A stretch of DNA of 64,000 bases from Trichocoleus desertorum ATA4-8-CV12 (GTDB lineage: Bacteria > Cyanobacteriota > Cyanobacteriia > FACHB-46). Below are positions 37,527-62,677 of this stretch, piece after piece. Below the pieces are notes generated by a model, which was given only the letters and a program-made list of their open reading frames with translations, did not search any database and was not told where the DNA came from. The translations under genes were made by a program, and so were the position numbers. Numbering within the stretch: position 1 is the first letter of the stretch; every line of letters starts with the position of its first letter. Location of the stretch: the NCBI GenBank assembly GCA_019358975.1, contig JAHHIL010000006.1, forward strand, positions 124,001-188,000, written 5' to 3'.

Positions 37527-39260
37527 GTGCATTCTCCCCAACAGAGCAGCATGGCAAATAGAGAACTAATACATGCGATCGCCCACGATTTAGAACAGCA
37601 CTCCAATTCCATTCGAATTAGGAAGCTGATTTTTTATATTTGCAAGCGCACTTGGGAAAATGATTTGGATACGCTGAAGTCTTATCCGCTTAATACTCTG
37701 ATTCAAGAGTTAATTCAGCTTTATCCTAAATTACCTGAGCTAGACTCTCAGCTTAATAAAGTTGCCCGTAGCTTGAGCAAACCCGCTGAATACAGCTTAA
37801 CTGCCAATCTTATCTTGCAGAAAATTAGGAAGCTTTATTCTGAGGTTCAGCCAAAGCCGAATATCGCCTCGAAACAGCAGCAAATCCTTCAAATTATTGA
37901 TAGGTTTTCTCAAGACAAAAACTCAATTAGAATCAAGAAAATCTTAGTTTATATTTGTAGAAATATTTGGGAAAATGACGGCGATCGCCTCAGTCAATAT
38001 AACCTGCAAGAGTTACTCGAAGAATTGCTACAAATTGCCCCCACTCTCGAAAGCCTTAACCTGGTACTTAACAGCGTTGTCAAAACACTGAATCGACAAG
38101 CAGAATACACTCTTGTTGCTAATACCATCTTAGGTCAAATTGGCAATTTATATCCTAAGCAGGCAGACTCAACTCAGTTAGTAACAAATGATTGTAGTAC
38201 ACAGATAGTTATTCAAACTGAATTAACAAATTTAATTATTGAACCTCAACAAACTGAAATTTCTAATCCTCTAGAACTAACTTCTTATATACAAATCGCA
38301 TCCTTTTTAGAAGCCCAGCCAGAGCAGATTCGGATTAAAAAGCTAGTTTTCTGTGCTTGTAGAAATCATTGGGAGAATGATCCAGACAATCTCCATCAAG
38401 TTTCACTAGAAGTTTTAATTCAGGAGTTGCACGCCATGGCTCCTGCGATCGCAGATCTAAAACTACTCTTATGCAATATTGTTAATACCTTAAACCGAAA
38501 AGCAGAATACTTTTTAATTGCGGATACTCTCACCCAGGCTCTCGAAGCCCTCTACTGTTGCTCAACTCATTCAGTTCCAGCAGTTCAGTCTTTAGGTCAG
38601 CAAGCTCAAGTTAGCTTAAATCAACCAACCGATCATCATTCATCACTGCCACTGGAGCCACCACAAGGAACAACCACAGCAGTAGAAAATGCTTACGATC
38701 TCTTCGAGTTGCGGCTCGAAATCATGAAGTATACCAATCCTCTGCGAGCCAAGATTTTACTCTTTTCAGTCCTTAAGCATAAGTTTTCTTTTACTACTGC
38801 CGATTGGTCTACACTCAAATCTTGTGGCTTTGATGATTTATTGCAGCAACTCTTGGAACAGTGCGACACTTTATCGACTCTGGAATCTCGGCTAGAAATT
38901 ATTGCTAGTTGCTTAGAAGATTCCGCCGAATACAATCAGGCAGCAGGGGCTATTATTCAGTGCGTTAAACCCTTTTACCCCCTCATACAACGGCAGCAAC
39001 AACTGATCTTAGCCACATCCGTCCCATCACCCATTTACTCAGGTCAGCTCTCATCTGAGCAAACCAAAATTAAACTCAATTTTGAAGAAACGCTTTTAAC
39101 CACTGGTCACACTATTGTTGAAGCGGATGATGAGCATACTCGTCAGTTTTTCTCCGCTTCAAATTCCTCCAAGAATGCTGTTGAGCGATCGCCCAGTAAT
39201 TTGGAGCAAACTTGCGAATTATCCTCCACCCTGCCACCACAAACCTCATCTTTTCAATAA
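37527..39260 (+). CDS. unrecognised protein with four copies of an approximately 93-residue module
   Basis: A 577-residue soluble protein (GTG at 37527, or ATG at 37551 eight codons later). Four homologous modules lie at about 12-104, 115-209, 252-343 and 392-484. The core pattern is an Ile-Arg-Ile-x-Lys-Lys/Leu start, a Cys in FYICK/VYICR/FCACR, WENDxDxL, a Leu-rich LIQEL helix, then LNRxAEYxLxA and a final LYP. The last copy has lost WEND and carries FTTADW instead. The C-terminal 90 residues are polar. No membrane segment or known catalytic motif is seen. The DNA is AT-rich compared with neighbours. A pentapeptide-repeat gene follows 67 bases downstream. Confidence 0.8.
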   Translation: MHSPQQSSMANRELIHAIAHDLEQHSNSIRIRKLIFYICKRTWENDLDTLKSYPLNTLIQELIQLYPKLPELDSQLNKVARSLSKPAEYSLTANLILQKIRKLYSEVQPKPNIASKQQQILQIIDRFSQDKNSIRIKKILVYICRNIWENDGDRLSQYNLQELLEELLQIAPTLESLNLVLNSVVKTLNRQAEYTLVANTILGQIGNLYPKQADSTQLVTNDCSTQIVIQTELTNLIIEPQQTEISNPLELTSYIQIASFLEAQPEQIRIKKLVFCACRNHWENDPDNLHQVSLEVLIQELHAMAPAIADLKLLLCNIVNTLNRKAEYFLIADTLTQALEALYCCSTHSVPAVQSLGQQAQVSLNQPTDHHSSLPLEPPQGTTTAVENAYDLFELRLEIMKYTNPLRAKILLFSVLKHKFSFTTADWSTLKSCGFDDLLQQLLEQCDTLSTLESRLEIIASCLEDSAEYNQAAGAIIQCVKPFYPLIQRQQQLILATSVPSPIYSGQLSSEQTKIKLNFEETLLTTGHTIVEADDEHTRQFFSASNSSKNAVERSPSNLEQTCELSSTLPPQTSSFQ

Positions 39261-40349: not shown

Positions 40350-43184
40350 TCAAGGACGGTTCGGTGAAGCCAAGTTGCGAAAACAGGTGAATTGCGGCTC
40401 AAATAGCAGTTTTACAGTTCCCACCGGGCCATTACGATGCTTAGTAATAATCACCTCAGCCACCCCGCGATCGGGCGTGTCCGGATTATAGTACTCGTCG
40501 CGGTAAATCATCATAATCAAATCCGCGTCCTGCTCGATCGATCCCGATTCGCGTAGGTCAGACATCATAGGTCGCTTGTTAGTACGAGACTCCACTCCTC
40601 GGCTCAACTGAGACAGAGCAATCACTGGAACACCTAGTTCCCGCGCTAAACTCTTCAAGCCGCGAGTTACTTTCGACAACTCTTGCACTCGGTTCTCTGA
40701 ACCACTGCCCTCCATTAGCTGCAAGTAATCGATCAATACAAGTCCCAAAGGTTTGCCGTTCTCTGCTTGCAAGCGACGGGCTTTGGAACGCATCTCTGTC
40801 ACGCTGATGTCCGGCGTATCGTCGATGTAAACATTCAGCTGCGATAAGGTGCTGATGGCATGCCCCAAAGGTTCCCATTCGGTCTGGCTGATCCGCCCAG
40901 AACGTAAGCGACCGCTCTCAATCCGAGACTCACTAGAGAGCAAGCGATAAACTAACTGCTCCTTGGACATCTCCAAGCTAAAAACTGCTACGGGTAGCTT
41001 ATGGAATGCCGAAATATTCCGAGCAATATTCAAAACGAAGCTCGTGTTATGAACGCAGATATCATTCGCGACAAAATTGTGTGTCTCTGGAATGGTTAAG
41101 TCATAAACTTGCTTGTATCCGACAGGTTCAATTGAAACAATTTCGTCCCAATAGATATCGCTAGTCGATAGGTTTTGCAGATCTTGATTTTCTAGAGCGG
41201 TGGCTAAAGCCAATAATCGTTCACGAGTGGGTGCCCGTTTGCCCACATGAATATTGCTATAACCAGCAATTCCAGCCCGAACTGCTAAAGCTTGCCAGGA
41301 TTCAGTGCCTTTCGCCGTCGTGATCGCTGCCCAAACCTCCATCGGAATTAAATCTCGATTGGTTTGGTATTTCTTATTGAGCAGCGCGGCTTGCACTTTG
41401 GACAAAGCTGGCTCTTTACCAAAGATGCCAATCTCAGAAATAAAAGTCTTGATAGACAAAGCATCAGTGATATCGAGTTGCCAAGCAGGTCGGCGCGTAT
41501 CTTTATACTTAACAGACCGTTGTTTAAGAGCAGCAATAATGCCAAAGCGCAGTAGCAAATGCTGGACTTGCCGAGCCAGTTTTTCACTCACCGTGGCGTA
41601 ACCTAGCTGTGCCTGCCCACTGGTTAGCACGCTAGCCCAGCCATCTGTGGCAAACAGACGGTTGAGAAATAAGGCAACCTGCGATCGCTGCAATTTAAAC
41701 ACAAGCGGCGGAATCACTTTTTCGTGGGCACTCTTACCCCACAACCTTAGTTCACGTAACCAAGCAGTGAGGGCATTTTGGCGATCGATTGCACTCCATC
41801 CTTCTGGCAGAAGCGCTGCTAGCTCCTCTCCCAGAAAATCACTCAAACTCTGCAAGTGCTGCGGGCTAGGAGTACAAATACCTTGTTGCCACTGGCAGAC
41901 TAAAGAAGCGCTCACTTCAAGTTTTTGAGCTAGTGCTTTGGCTGTCAGAGGGCTTGACTTGATCGAACCACCAAGGCGATCGCCAAAAACCTTACGATTA
42001 GCTGCGACCGTTTCCAGGTTCCTAGAAACATAGAAACTGGGAGTTCTGTCCCCAGAGATGTCTCTGCGAACTTTGAGACTAGCAAAATCAGCTACGGCTT
42101 CAGTAAAGTCCTGCTGAATCTGACTATTGCTATTTGTAAAGCCTGGGTTTGTTCTGGTTAAACAGCCATCCCCAATCAGATAGCCCAGCAATTTAACTGC
42201 ACATTCTCGCAGTGTTTCTGTCCCAAAAACTTCCAGCTTACGAGGCACGGCAATTTTGTCGCCAGGTTGTAACTCAGCTAAGGGTCGCCATCCTTGAAGC
42301 GTCAAGTAAGGATGCGTAATAGTAGTTTCAACCGATCGCCCTAGGCGAGTTGTGACTCGGAAAACAGGTTTGATGCCATCATCTACATAAGCTGAAGGGT
42401 GAGTCAGGTTAAATCGCCAGTTCTGATCCAAGGTCAGCAATTTTCCCTGGCGACGTTGATACACTTCCTCAATTGTGGCAATACTGCCGTCTTCCAAAAC
42501 AATCTCTGTCTGAGCCTCACAACACTTGCCCATTGACGGGCGACCCGCCACAATCACAAGATCCGATCGCTGGAAACCTTGAGTCATGGCATCCAGATCA
42601 TAGAAACCACAAGCGATCCCTGGCATCACCATGCCTAAGGAGCGGCTTTCAATGTCGGAAAAAGTGTCTGTAAGAATATCCGAAGTTGGGACTAGACCTT
42701 GTTGCGGGCGGTCTTGAGTGATGCTAAAAACTTTTTGCTCAGATTGATCGAGGATCTTGACTAGTTCGCTATTGGTTTCATAACCGAGCTGCGCGATCTC
42801 AGTGCCAACCTGAATCAACTTGCGGCGCAAATACTTATCCATGACCAGCGAAGCATACTGGTCAATATTGACGGCGCTGATGGTTCGATCTACCAGTTGA
42901 GCGAGTCGGCTTTGCCCCCCAACTTTTTCCAGCAGGCTGTGATCTTGCAACCAGCTTGTGATGCTCATGAGATCGGTCGGCTTACCCTGGCTATGGAGCG
43001 TGACCGCTGTGCGATAGATTTCTTGATGAGCACTAATGTAAAACGCTTCAGGCCGCAGAACATCAATCACGCGGTTGATGGCTTCTGGGTCGAGCAAGAT
43101 ACCGCCCAAAATTGCTTCTTCAGCATCAATATTTTGCGGCGGCAGGCGATCGCTCAACGGCTGAAAACTCAAGTCGTGGACCAT
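40350..43184 (-). CDS. dnaB: replicative DNA helicase DnaB with intein
   Basis: The hexameric helicase that unwinds DNA at the replication fork. The 944-residue precursor contains a 451-residue DnaB split by a 493-residue intein. The N-domain starts LPPQNIDAEEAILGGILLDPEA; the RecA-like domain has the P-loop GRPSMGK interrupted just before TSFVLNIARN, then FSLEMSKEQL, LVLIDYLQLM, and SDLRESGSIEQDADLI. The last segment, the insertion point of the well-known Synechocystis DnaB intein, is uninterrupted. Splicing must occur for activity because the Walker A threonine is separated. rplI lies upstream on the same strand. Confidence 0.95.
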   Translation of the reverse strand: MVHDLSFQPLSDRLPPQNIDAEEAILGGILLDPEAINRVIDVLRPEAFYISAHQEIYRTAVTLHSQGKPTDLMSITSWLQDHSLLEKVGGQSRLAQLVDRTISAVNIDQYASLVMDKYLRRKLIQVGTEIAQLGYETNSELVKILDQSEQKVFSITQDRPQQGLVPTSDILTDTFSDIESRSLGMVMPGIACGFYDLDAMTQGFQRSDLVIVAGRPSMGKCCEAQTEIVLEDGSIATIEEVYQRRQGKLLTLDQNWRFNLTHPSAYVDDGIKPVFRVTTRLGRSVETTITHPYLTLQGWRPLAELQPGDKIAVPRKLEVFGTETLRECAVKLLGYLIGDGCLTRTNPGFTNSNSQIQQDFTEAVADFASLKVRRDISGDRTPSFYVSRNLETVAANRKVFGDRLGGSIKSSPLTAKALAQKLEVSASLVCQWQQGICTPSPQHLQSLSDFLGEELAALLPEGWSAIDRQNALTAWLRELRLWGKSAHEKVIPPLVFKLQRSQVALFLNRLFATDGWASVLTSGQAQLGYATVSEKLARQVQHLLLRFGIIAALKQRSVKYKDTRRPAWQLDITDALSIKTFISEIGIFGKEPALSKVQAALLNKKYQTNRDLIPMEVWAAITTAKGTESWQALAVRAGIAGYSNIHVGKRAPTRERLLALATALENQDLQNLSTSDIYWDEIVSIEPVGYKQVYDLTIPETHNFVANDICVHNTSFVLNIARNISAFHKLPVAVFSLEMSKEQLVYRLLSSESRIESGRLRSGRISQTEWEPLGHAISTLSQLNVYIDDTPDISVTEMRSKARRLQAENGKPLGLVLIDYLQLMEGSGSENRVQELSKVTRGLKSLARELGVPVIALSQLSRGVESRTNKRPMMSDLRESGSIEQDADLIMMIYRDEYYNPDTPDRGVAEVIITKHRNGPVGTVKLLFEPQFTCFRNLASPNRP
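41046..42524 (-). mobile_element. DnaB intein with LAGLIDADG endonuclease and helix-turn-helix-like inserts
   Basis: Residues 221-713 of the precursor. The intein starts with Cys (CCEAQTEI) after GRPSMGK and ends ICVHN before Thr. Splicing motifs include TTITHPYL (block B, TxxH), VYDLTIPETHNFVAND (block F) and the terminal HN (block G). Two LAGLIDADG motifs, LLGYLIGDG (about 332-340) and FLNRLFATDG (about 506-515), indicate a homing endonuclease. Between them, about residues 413-452, lies a helix-turn-helix-like segment, AKALAQKLEVSASLVCQWQQ. Another similar segment is near residues 628-665 (WQALAVRAGIAGYSNIHVGK). Confidence 0.93.
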
Positions 43185-58663: not shown

Positions 58664-59025
58664 TGCTAATGACCTAGGAAGGATAAAGGCGGAAGGATGT
58701 ACGCCCTTGGCGTTCCCGTAGGGTGGAGTAAATCCTACCCAAAATCCCGGTTTGCCGATGAAGTTACTGTAGTTTTATAGCACGAACTGTACTGACCTGC
58801 TGCAAGTTTGTAAGTAGATGCGGCAGATTACAGATATCTTTGCTACTTGTTGCAAACTTTTGATAGCATCCCTGACAATTTGACCAAACTGCAATCCCAA
58901 TTTCATGTCGGTATATTAAGGTCTGTTGCATTTCGGTCATATCTCCGCAGTTCAGTCTGCTGGAGAGAAAAAGTCCATGATACTATCCTCTCTTGTAGCC
59001 ATAGAAGAGATTGGGAGAAAGACCT
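58664..59025. other. 362-bp intergenic region between cysA and chlP
   Basis: This divergent promoter region has TATATT at about 58911 upstream of chlP and no clear NtcA site. A 62-codon frame at 58847-59035 overlaps chlP and has no homologue-like features. No RNA gene was recognised. Confidence 0.4.
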
Positions 59026-60249
59026 TTGGCACTAAGGGTTGCTGTTGTTGGAGGCGGTCCAGCAGGTTCTTCCGCTGCTGAGACATTAGCAAAAGCTGGT
59101 ATCGAAACTTATTTATTCGAACGCAAATTAGATAACGCTAAGCCCTGTGGTGGAGCCATTCCTCTCTGCATGGTGGAAGAATTTGATCTGCCGCTCAACA
59201 TCATTGATCGGCAGGTGAGAAAAATGAAAATGATCTCACCCTCCAATGTTGAGGTCAGCATTGGCAGCACGCTCAAAGAAGGCGAGTATATCGGCATGTG
59301 CCGTCGGGAAGTCTTGGATGGCTTTATGCGCGATCGCGCTGAAAAGCTTGGTGCCAAGTTGATTAATGGCACAGTCCACAAACTTGAGATTCCCAGCAAC
59401 AATAAAGACCCTTACACGCTGCACTACGCTGACCACTCTAATGGCAGCTTAGAAGGCACTGCTAAGACCTTGCAAGTTGATTTGGTGGTGGGGGCAGATG
59501 GAGCAAACTCCCGGATTGCCAAGGCCATTGATGCAGGGGACTACAACTATGCGATCGCTTTCCAAGAGCGTATTCGTCTGCCAGATGACAAAATGGCCTA
59601 CTACCAAGACCTGGCAGAAATGTATGTGGGCGATGATGTTTCTACCGACTTCTACGCTTGGGTTTTCCCCAAATACGACCACGTAGCTGTTGGTACGGGC
59701 ACCATGCACGTCAATAAAGCTGACATCAAAAAGCTGCAAGCAGGAATTCGCACCCGTGCTGCGAAGCGTCTAGAAGGTGGCGAAATTATCAAGGTGGAAG
59801 CTCACCCCATTCCTGAGCACCCCAGACCTCGCCGTGTGGTAGGCCGTGTGGCACTCGTTGGCGATGCTGCGGGTACGGTCACCAAGTCTTCGGGCGAAGG
59901 GATCTACTTTGCGGCTAAGTCTGCTCGGATGTGTGCTGAAGCGATTGTGGAATTCTCCAACCAAGGCCAGCGGATTCCGACCGAAGCTGACTTGAAGGTG
60001 TACATCAAGCGCTGGGACAAAATGTACGGCCTCACCTACAAGGTGTTGGACATCCTACAATCTGTCTTCTACCGCTCAGATGCCACCCGTGAAGCGTTTG
60101 TAGAAATGTGCGCTGACATGGATGTGCAGAAGCTGACTTTTGATAGCTACCTGTACAAAACCGTGGTACCTGCTAACCCCTTGGTACAACTCAAAATCAC
60201 AGCTAAAACGATTGGTAGCTTGCTACGCGGTAACGCTCTCGCTCCCTAA
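59026..60249 (+). CDS. chlP: geranylgeranyl diphosphate reductase
   Basis: Reduces the geranylgeranyl chain to phytyl for chlorophyll and tocopherol using NADPH. The TTG at 59026 is preceded by GGGAG and gives MALRVAVVGGGPAGSSAAE, the expected family start and 407 residues; the TTG at 59011 would add 5. The FAD-binding GGGPAGSSAAETLAKAG, KPCGGAIPLC, VGADGANSRIA and VALVGDAAGTVTKSSGEGI motifs are all present. It is followed by a terminator. Confidence 0.95.
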   Translation: MALRVAVVGGGPAGSSAAETLAKAGIETYLFERKLDNAKPCGGAIPLCMVEEFDLPLNIIDRQVRKMKMISPSNVEVSIGSTLKEGEYIGMCRREVLDGFMRDRAEKLGAKLINGTVHKLEIPSNNKDPYTLHYADHSNGSLEGTAKTLQVDLVVGADGANSRIAKAIDAGDYNYAIAFQERIRLPDDKMAYYQDLAEMYVGDDVSTDFYAWVFPKYDHVAVGTGTMHVNKADIKKLQAGIRTRAAKRLEGGEIIKVEAHPIPEHPRPRRVVGRVALVGDAAGTVTKSSGEGIYFAAKSARMCAEAIVEFSNQGQRIPTEADLKVYIKRWDKMYGLTYKVLDILQSVFYRSDATREAFVEMCADMDVQKLTFDSYLYKTVVPANPLVQLKITAKTIGSLLRGNALAP

Positions 60250-60289
60250 TTGATTTAGCGCAGTCCTCCATTCGCAATTACTCCAATCG

Positions 60290-60326
60290 CGATCGCTTGA
60301 CTTAACAGTTAGGCGATCGTTTTTTA
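60290..60326 (+). terminator. chlP terminator built from two HIP1-type cores
   Basis: CGATCGC (60290-60296) and GCGATCG (60313-60319) form a 7-bp stem with a 16-base loop and are followed by seven T residues. The stem arms are the common HIP1-like sequence, so the terminator appears to use HIP1 copies. Confidence 0.7.
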
Positions 60327-60418
60327 TGCTAATTAACGTATTACTCTATCTTCTTGACGAGATTAAGGCCAAAAATTTTTTAGTGGCTCATTAAACTCTA
60401 ATCACAAAGACTTAAGAA

Positions 60419-61831
60419 GTGGGAAAACTACTTTACAAAGTCGCTAACTATGAGATGCAGATGCCAACAAGAGTATTTCTATGTAATCGGGAAACTTGGT
60501 ATCACAGTGTTGAAGATGAAATAAAACAAGCAAAAGAATCATTAGCTAAAGGCGAAATTCATCAAGGTGCTTGGACTTGTGGCGGCGTTAAGTCCATAGA
60601 GGTCAACGATAATGCTTACTTCAAGAGGGTAGGCAGTGAGCCTCTTGGCTTCTTTGCGTATGGACGAATTGTTGCTGCTGAAAAAGAGTATCAACTTAGG
60701 CTAGTAGAAGAAGACTACAGTAATGTCAGTGAAGCATATGAAGCCTGCTATGACGATGAAGGAAATGTGGTTTTAGCTGTTGCTTATGAATGGCACTCAG
60801 TTGTTGATTACAATCAAACTCTAGAAATCAAACGACTCAAGCAGGATTTAGAGTTTTCAAAGACTAATTTTCATTTTCAGGGGTCAGGAGGAAGTTTTAG
60901 AGAGGAATGTATTAGCCTACTAAATGAATATTGGAGAAGGCATGTTCTGAATCTATCAAGACAAGGATTTGGAGTTCATCTAGCAGAAATTCTCTATAAA
61001 GCAGCACAAGAGAGTAGTAACCAAAAACTGTATGTAGAAGCTATTGAAAAATTCACTCAAGCTATTCACATCGACCCTAATTATGCCAAAGCTTATATTG
61101 GTCGAGGAAATGTATATCAAACGCTAGGAGATCAGCGTGAAGCTTTGCACAACTATGATGAAGCAATTCAAATAAAATCTACAAACAACTCAATCGCCTA
61201 CTACCAACGAGGAATTATTCATACTGAGTTAGGCAATAAACAGAAAGCGATAGAGGATTTTACCAAAGCTGAAAAACTGTTTCTGGACAAAGCAGATTTA
61301 GTTAACTATCAGAAAGTTCAGGAAAGAATCAAAACGTTAACTTCAGGTAAGACCTTAGAACTAAGTGAGCTTGCTGCTTTAAGAGAGCGTATTGTTGACG
61401 TTCCTAGCACAGCAAAAAGCTTGAAAGAGGCGAGAAAAGGAATCCTAGTTTCTATTATTCGACGGCAAGGCCAATCCCTATTTCGGCAAAAGCTACTTGA
61501 AGCGTATAACAACCAGTGTGCAATAACAGACTGTGGCGTAGAGGAGGCTTTAGAAGCAGCTCACATTATTCCTTACAGCGAAAATGGCAGTAATCAGATC
61601 GTAAATGGACTGTTACTGAGAGCCGATTTACATACACTCTTCGATCTCAACTTAATTGCAATAGAGCCAAAAACTTATACGGTAGTGCTCCACCCTAGCC
61701 TTCTCCAAAGTAGCTATGGTGGACTGCATCAGAAAAACTTATGCCTTCCTTCATCCACAAATTACAAGCCTAGTCAAGAAGCACTTCAACAACGCTGGAA
61801 CCAGTGTGAGTGGGCTAGAAATCATGAGTAA
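60419..61831 (+). CDS. predicted modification-dependent nuclease: EVE-like reader, TPR repeats, HNH nuclease
   Basis: The 470-residue frame starts with GTG at 60419; ATGs at 60455 and 60461 are closer to the first conserved segment. Residues about 14-175 resemble the EVE/PUA-like base readers: VFLCNRETWYHS, WTCGGVKSIEVNDNAYFKRVG (about 58-78), GFFAYGRIVAA, and the closing FHFQGSGGSFREECIS. Residues about 195-300 contain TPR repeats (YAKAYIGRGNVYQTLGD). The C-terminus (about 355-440) has the HNH_2 pattern CAITDCGVEEALEAAHIIPY then NGLLLRADLHTLFDLNLIAI. EVE-HNH combinations are found in defence against modified phage DNA. The gene is AT-rich and stands alone. Confidence 0.78.
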   Translation: MGKLLYKVANYEMQMPTRVFLCNRETWYHSVEDEIKQAKESLAKGEIHQGAWTCGGVKSIEVNDNAYFKRVGSEPLGFFAYGRIVAAEKEYQLRLVEEDYSNVSEAYEACYDDEGNVVLAVAYEWHSVVDYNQTLEIKRLKQDLEFSKTNFHFQGSGGSFREECISLLNEYWRRHVLNLSRQGFGVHLAEILYKAAQESSNQKLYVEAIEKFTQAIHIDPNYAKAYIGRGNVYQTLGDQREALHNYDEAIQIKSTNNSIAYYQRGIIHTELGNKQKAIEDFTKAEKLFLDKADLVNYQKVQERIKTLTSGKTLELSELAALRERIVDVPSTAKSLKEARKGILVSIIRRQGQSLFRQKLLEAYNNQCAITDCGVEEALEAAHIIPYSENGSNQIVNGLLLRADLHTLFDLNLIAIEPKTYTVVLHPSLLQSSYGGLHQKNLCLPSSTNYKPSQEALQQRWNQCEWARNHE

Positions 61832-61933
61832 GAGTAAGGTGCGATCGCCATGCAAAAGCTAGCCTGCATTGGTGAGGAGCGATCGCAGGCTGAGCTAGAG
61901 AGGATGAAAACTGAATTTGTAGAACGAGTGACC

Positions 61934-62677
61934 TTATTCCGCTAAGGCTGCTTCCACATCTTCCGACTTTTCATGGCTGGGTAACTCCAGGCAATAGCCT
62001 GCACCATACACAGTCTTGATGTAGCGCGGGTGACGCGGGTCTGGTTCTAGCTTGGTTCTCAAGTGCCTGACGTGAACCCGAATGGTTTCGATGTCATCAT
62101 CGGGGTCGTAGCCCCAAACTTCCTTAAGAATTTCGCTCGGTGAAACCGTTTGACCATGCCGCTGCAACAGACAATGTAAAAGTTCAAATTCTAAATGAGT
62201 TAACTTAACCGTTTGATCAAACCAGATTGCTTCAAATCGTTCTGGCACCAGAGTCAGAGGCCCGTAATTCAGAATCTCACTGTGCTTAGCCGCTTGAGGA
62301 ATGCGATCGGTACGACGCAACAAAGCTCGCACTCTAGCCAGCATTTCTTCCAGCTCAAAAGGCTTGGTGAGATAGTCATCCGCACCCGCATTAAACCCTT
62401 CTACCTTGTCTTGGGTTTGGCTCAGGGCAGTCAGCATCAGGACTGGAATGTCTGCGGTTCGCTCGTCTCGGCGGAGGCGCTGGCAAACGGTAAAACCGTC
62501 TACCTTGGGTAGCATCAGATCCAGCATGATTAAATCTGGCTGCAATTGCAAAGCTAGGGCCTGACCTTTAATGCCATCCGGCGCTTGGCTCACATCATAC
62601 CCAGCCATTTCCAGGTTGACTGCCACTAGCTCTGAAATCGCAGGATCATCATCAATAACAAGTATCCGGGGCATCAT
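61934..62677 (-). CDS. rpaA: response regulator RpaA
   Basis: A 247-residue OmpR/PhoB-type regulator: the receiver domain has the acidic pair IDDD, the phosphorylated Asp in [17 protein letters not shown] and DDYLTKPFE. The DNA-binding domain has [36 protein letters not shown] and [14 protein letters not shown]. The receiver and linker ([20 protein letters not shown]) match RpaA, which SasA phosphorylates for clock output, rather than RpaB. It is convergent with the HNH gene. Confidence 0.93.

Follow-up and report, generated by a model that had tools for sequence, protein, structure and literature searches.

The window, by which we mean the whole 64-kb stretch of DNA analysed here, contains an open and complete reading frame on the forward strand at 60419-61831 (+), as the original prediction had proposed. 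Its GTG start probably lies 14 codons too far upstream. In the ortholog from a second species of the genus (G001), which has 78% identity over 456 residues and is flanked by the same neighbours, an in-frame TAG stands just upstream of an ATG-CCA and an AGGAG motif precedes that ATG, so the window protein probably begins at ATG 60461 and comprises 456 amino acids (60461-61831, +); residue numbers are counted from this ATG unless the 470-aa numbering is stated. The gene, which encodes an EVE–TPR–HNH_2 protein, is indeed AT-rich, with a GC content of about 41% against about 49% in its surroundings. The upstream gene (59011-60249) reads as a geranylgeranyl-reductase-like flavoprotein and is followed on its 3' side by a terminator-like hairpin (60289-60320, +), drawn from a consensus scan only and with a HIP1 site inside, while the downstream response regulator gene (61934-62677) is convergent to the EVE–TPR–HNH_2 gene. 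Taken together, the hairpin and the convergent neighbour suggest that the gene is its own, monocistronic transcription unit. The claim that it lacks a methylase neighbour also held, as the methylase families PF00145, PF01555 and PF02086 were not matched anywhere in the 64-kb window. HIP1 (GCGATCGC) occurs 111 times in the window, where 0.86 occurrences are expected, and none lies inside the EVE–TPR–HNH_2 gene. Elsewhere in the window we observed a 944-aa frame for a DnaB-like replicative helicase (40350-43184, -), which appears from its translation to bear an intein, and a 577-aa frame (37527-39260, +) in a low-GC stretch with apparent internal repeats.

The gene is real, maintained and under purifying selection; comparison with the ortholog gives a dN/dS of 0.17 overall, which is the value of a maintained gene. 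Constraint is distributed unevenly, with values of 0.11 for the EVE part, 0.14 for the HNH part, 0.22 for the TPRs and 0.92 for residues 301-318. The constrained parts are the reader and the nuclease, and EVE is the most constrained of all.

That a PUA/EVE-like reader, TPR repeats and an HNH_2 nuclease follow one another in a single protein was claimed in the original prediction, and this order was recovered, with Pfam matches to TPR_1 (69 bits, cut-off 27.8) and HNH_2 (48.4 bits, cut-off 21) and an EVE fold by model. The reader occupies residues 1-167 (60461-60961, +). Comparing its sequence with the PDB directly gave weak EVE matches alone (2eve with an E value of 0.13, and of 1.6 in another search), and for this reason the fold was searched instead. 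Folded with 13 relatives, the reader gave a model with a mean pLDDT of 88.5, for which the top Foldseek matches were 2ar1, 5j3e (human THYN1 with 5mC DNA) and 2eve; the structural matches in VIA were 2ar1 (Z 11.9), 2eve (Z 10.8), 5j3e (Z 9.7) and the modification-dependent endonuclease VcaM4I (Z 9.0), the last of these standing below the first EVE rows of the VIA list and outside the best 50 Foldseek matches. By itself the window domain matched no Pfam family (EVE is PF01878), but Pfam EVE was matched by five of eight aligned relatives and by 6 of 14 in a wider alignment (best 1.2e-5). One relative, a canonical EVE-HNH protein from a different cyanobacterium (G049), reaches 24.1 bits for Pfam EVE, above the cut-off of 23, and matched the window reader in sequence with an E value of 8.3e-8 over residues 6-74. 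By its modelled fold and its remote sequence similarity, the N-terminal domain is EVE, a member of the PUA superfamily and of a type known to recognise chemically modified DNA bases; the EVE-like character claimed for it was thus upheld by the fold and by the relatives, though not by a Pfam match of its own.

The position of a base-binding pocket is much less secure. In VcaM4I the flipped base is held by P24, W82 and Y130 (PMC7897488), and C40, Y86 and F146 of the window protein fall at or near these positions in an alignment where the window EVE shares 12-18% identity with VcaM4I relatives. For this alignment the VcaM4I sequence was seen through a 314-aa relative, together with an alignment with VcaM4I relatives, and C40 was placed by a manual shift around the conserved W38. 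Since the reader has no Pfam match of its own and identity is so low, the pocket is placed tentatively, as a lead and not a result.

The HNH_2 nuclease occupies residues 319-456 (61415-61831, +; core 61517-61666). When this half was compared with all PDB sequences using phmmer, VcaM4I (6yex) was the sole significant match (E 2.9e-5), and H368, N382, H391 and D395 aligned with H224, N241, D250 and D254 of VcaM4I, differing in that D250 is a His in the window protein. The four VcaM4I residues are discussed as HNH-motif and active-site residues; replacement of H224, D250 or D254 by Ala drastically impaired activity, and N241 is considered structural (PMC7897488). All four residues are kept in the ortholog and, judged by this alignment, the HNH (ββα-Me) active site is complete, a feature that the original prediction had named as support. 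The EVE fold match and the HNH match both lead to VcaM4I, so that the two halves of the window protein find their counterparts, in matching order, in one restriction enzyme.

The fold lists and the HNH half could also be read in favour of a nuclease of the same type that recognises another mark, either 6mA as read by YTH or phosphorothioate as in the ScoMcrA type. YTH domains are interleaved in the fold lists below the first EVE rows, but EVE structures come first in both Foldseek and VIA. Likewise, the C-terminal HNH part has a weak profile match to the NCBIfam family of ScoMcrA-type phosphorothioate-dependent enzymes (NF045808), but the match is confined to that part (338-454, 470-aa numbering) and, at 42.7 bits, lies far below the family cut-off of 180, so that membership was rejected; the window reader, moreover, is EVE by its modelled fold. 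We regard this reading as highly improbable.

Reader and nuclease are separated by a TPR segment (residues about 174-294; 60980-61342, +) of helical repeats, matched by Pfam TPR_1/TPR_2 in three stretches and modelled as paired helices with pLDDT around 90, and by a weakly constrained linker (residues about 295-318; 61343-61414, +) with low pLDDT. The full-length model is confident across EVE and TPR, and poor in the linker and HNH. The TPR segment, about 120 residues long, stands in the position that a linker helix (residues 148-178) takes in VcaM4I; this helix is autoinhibitory, and VcaM4I deprived of its EVE domain and linker is a toxic nuclease (PMC7897488). As the TPRs occupy the place of an autoinhibitory element, it is reasonable to suggest, and to go no further, that they might have a gating or partner-binding role.

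The reader is rare. Among 386 sampled cyanobacterial genomes it turned up in 8 by sequence and in 9 by profile (about 2%), and genome contigs yielded 29 loci, almost all from cyanobacteria. A scan of viral contigs with the reader alignment found no relative, and phage records matched in the TPR and HNH parts only. Three architectures recur. EVE–TPR–HNH_2 is present in the window genus and, with about one TPR, in the Nostocales; EVE–TPR–NOV_C, ending in a PD-(D/E)XK-like NOV_C/DUF3883 domain, is found with five or more TPRs in Pseudanabaena, in some twenty genomes from that genus and its relatives, and also on a Tolypothrix plasmid; and EVE occurs in solitary form. The Tolypothrix plasmid is mobilizable, and its EVE–TPR–NOV_C gene adjoins an integrase gene; two genes beyond lies a cytosine methyltransferase. 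Its NOV_C domain retains the D and E-x-K residues, as GYD and E-I-K. Among the Pseudanabaena proteins, those whose motif was read (loci L047-L067) have V-I-K or I-I-K, with the Glu of E-x-K replaced, which suggests that this nuclease-like domain has lost its catalytic function; not all EVE–TPR members, therefore, need be nucleases. In phylogenetic terms, HNH appears to have joined EVE–TPR once or twice, as the EVE tree requires two changes of HNH label and the HNH domains joined to EVE–TPR stay together in 40% of bootstraps of the HNH tree. It is possible, if rather doubtful, that EVE–TPR is a shared cyanobacterial sensor-and-transducer module that accepts either HNH_2 or NOV_C/DUF3883, with the TPRs acting as a gate or partner-binding switch in place of the linker helix.

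TPRs are typical protein-binding scaffolds, and the repeats could therefore be given the leading part: on binding a phage or host protein they would free the HNH domain, while EVE would bind nucleic acid and base modification would not be the trigger, making the protein an abortive-infection or signal-gated effector. Such an arrangement would accommodate a relative on a Nostoc conjugative plasmid, which has TPR plus HNH_2 and no EVE domain, and the fusion of related HNH_2 domains to pentapeptide and WD40 repeats. Yet constraint is strongest in EVE and not in the TPRs (dN/dS 0.11 against 0.22), and it is the number of TPRs that varies, roughly one in Nostocales against five or more in Pseudanabaena, with EVE retained. 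We therefore consider a TPR-triggered nuclease unlikely. With regard to the repeat fusions themselves, the catalytic His is apparently replaced in two pentapeptide-repeat HNH proteins (L023:3748-5037 and L024:3325-4596), which have VAYI where others have AAHI, and a WD40–HNH_2 gene (L022:2306-4792, G001 contig C89) looks interrupted by a transposase-like insertion.

The gene lies in an exchangeable segment (60337-61834). In a sister species (G002) the same flanking genes enclose an unrelated cassette of about 1.5 kb with two other ORFs (L087:4650-6028), the first of which matches the PADLOC candidate defence family PDC-M09A (E 2.2e-29). The Nostocales copies have the same neighbours in every checkable locus, and three of them are broken in place: that of G400 by an early stop, that of Nostoc sp. 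UCD121 by a stop and a frame change, and that of Mojavia by a stop ahead of the HNH part. Such turnover, through slot exchange and decay, is more in keeping with a role in restriction or defence than with a core gene. Gene transfer, which the original prediction had read from the base composition, is borne out as gain and loss of this kind, but not as a recent arrival in the window genome alone; entry into that genome alone was rejected because the sister species G001 has the ortholog at the same site.

Turnover also bears on whether the protein is concerned with defence at all. A factor that processes DNA in a housekeeping or regulatory capacity, reading a host mark or a damaged base, would be consistent with the many genomic contexts besides defence in which EVE domains occur (PMC7641849), and with the Pseudanabaena form, whose presence across the genus and its relatives is more like that of a vertically kept gene and whose NOV_C lacks the Glu of E-x-K. 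Against this stand the absence of the gene from a sister species, with a defence-like cassette in its stead, its repeated decay in Nostocales and its rarity in the phylum, and we find a housekeeping role distinctly improbable.

Among known systems, the closest to the window protein are the EVE-HNH modification-dependent endonucleases VcaM4I, TspA15I and CmeDI, which likewise have an N-terminal EVE domain, a C-terminal HNH domain and no methylase partner. The likeness to VcaM4I extends to homologous HNH halves, aligned catalytic positions and a shared EVE fold, although the EVE parts are distant in sequence and the intervening segments differ. In Bell et al. 2020 (PMC7641849), EVE-HNH and EVE-PD(D/E)XK fusions figure as putative type IV enzymes, often with additional domains. 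The second of these combinations, EVE with a PD-(D/E)XK nuclease, resembles the Tolypothrix relative, whereas HNH_2 is the nuclease of the window protein; the paper makes no mention of a TPR segment in its main text. The cyanobacterial HNH_2 proteins with pentapeptide, WD40 or TPR repeats share a related HNH_2 domain, but have no EVE reader. Our search of the literature for EVE or type IV with TPR and HNH found no description of an EVE–TPR–HNH fusion. Thus, EVE-HNH and EVE-PD(D/E)XK fusions are known, and VcaM4I is characterised, while the TPR-containing arrangement is new with respect to the literature searched.

Our essential contention is that the gene probably encodes a solitary, NTP-independent, modification-dependent (type IV-like) endonuclease with TPRs between reader and nuclease. 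We favour this prediction because each half resembles its counterpart in VcaM4I and the order is shared, because the segment is exchangeable and because no methylase lies alongside; modified-base specificity, DNA cleavage, a role in defence and a role for the TPRs are what we infer from these resemblances. The most likely role would be to destroy phage or plasmid DNA that enters the cell with modified bases. In the mechanism we propose, a modified base in foreign DNA would be flipped out and bound by the EVE domain, after which HNH_2, probably as a dimer, would cut that DNA. The TPRs might keep the nuclease in check before DNA is bound, fix the distance between reader and cut, or bind a partner.

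What mark would be read is a further consideration. The window genome has a plasmid-like contig (C70) with ParA-like genes and a cytosine-C5 methyltransferase beside a restriction-like protein; were that methyltransferase active, an enzyme that cuts 5mC DNA in general might harm the host itself. The window reader may consequently recognise some mark or context other than general 5mC. The methyltransferase on this contig adjoins a HATPase protein (L083:2487-5682) that has a weak Shedu-like match at its C-terminus.

If this reading is true, the EVE–TPR–HNH_2 proteins would add a cyanobacterial branch to modification-dependent restriction, providing defence against phages that modify their DNA. 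The family would also offer a natural test of how a reader is coupled to a nuclease, since a single EVE–TPR front end is combined with two unrelated nuclease types and with varied numbers of TPRs. In practical terms, EVE–TPR–HNH_2 could block the transformation of these strains with methylated plasmid DNA.
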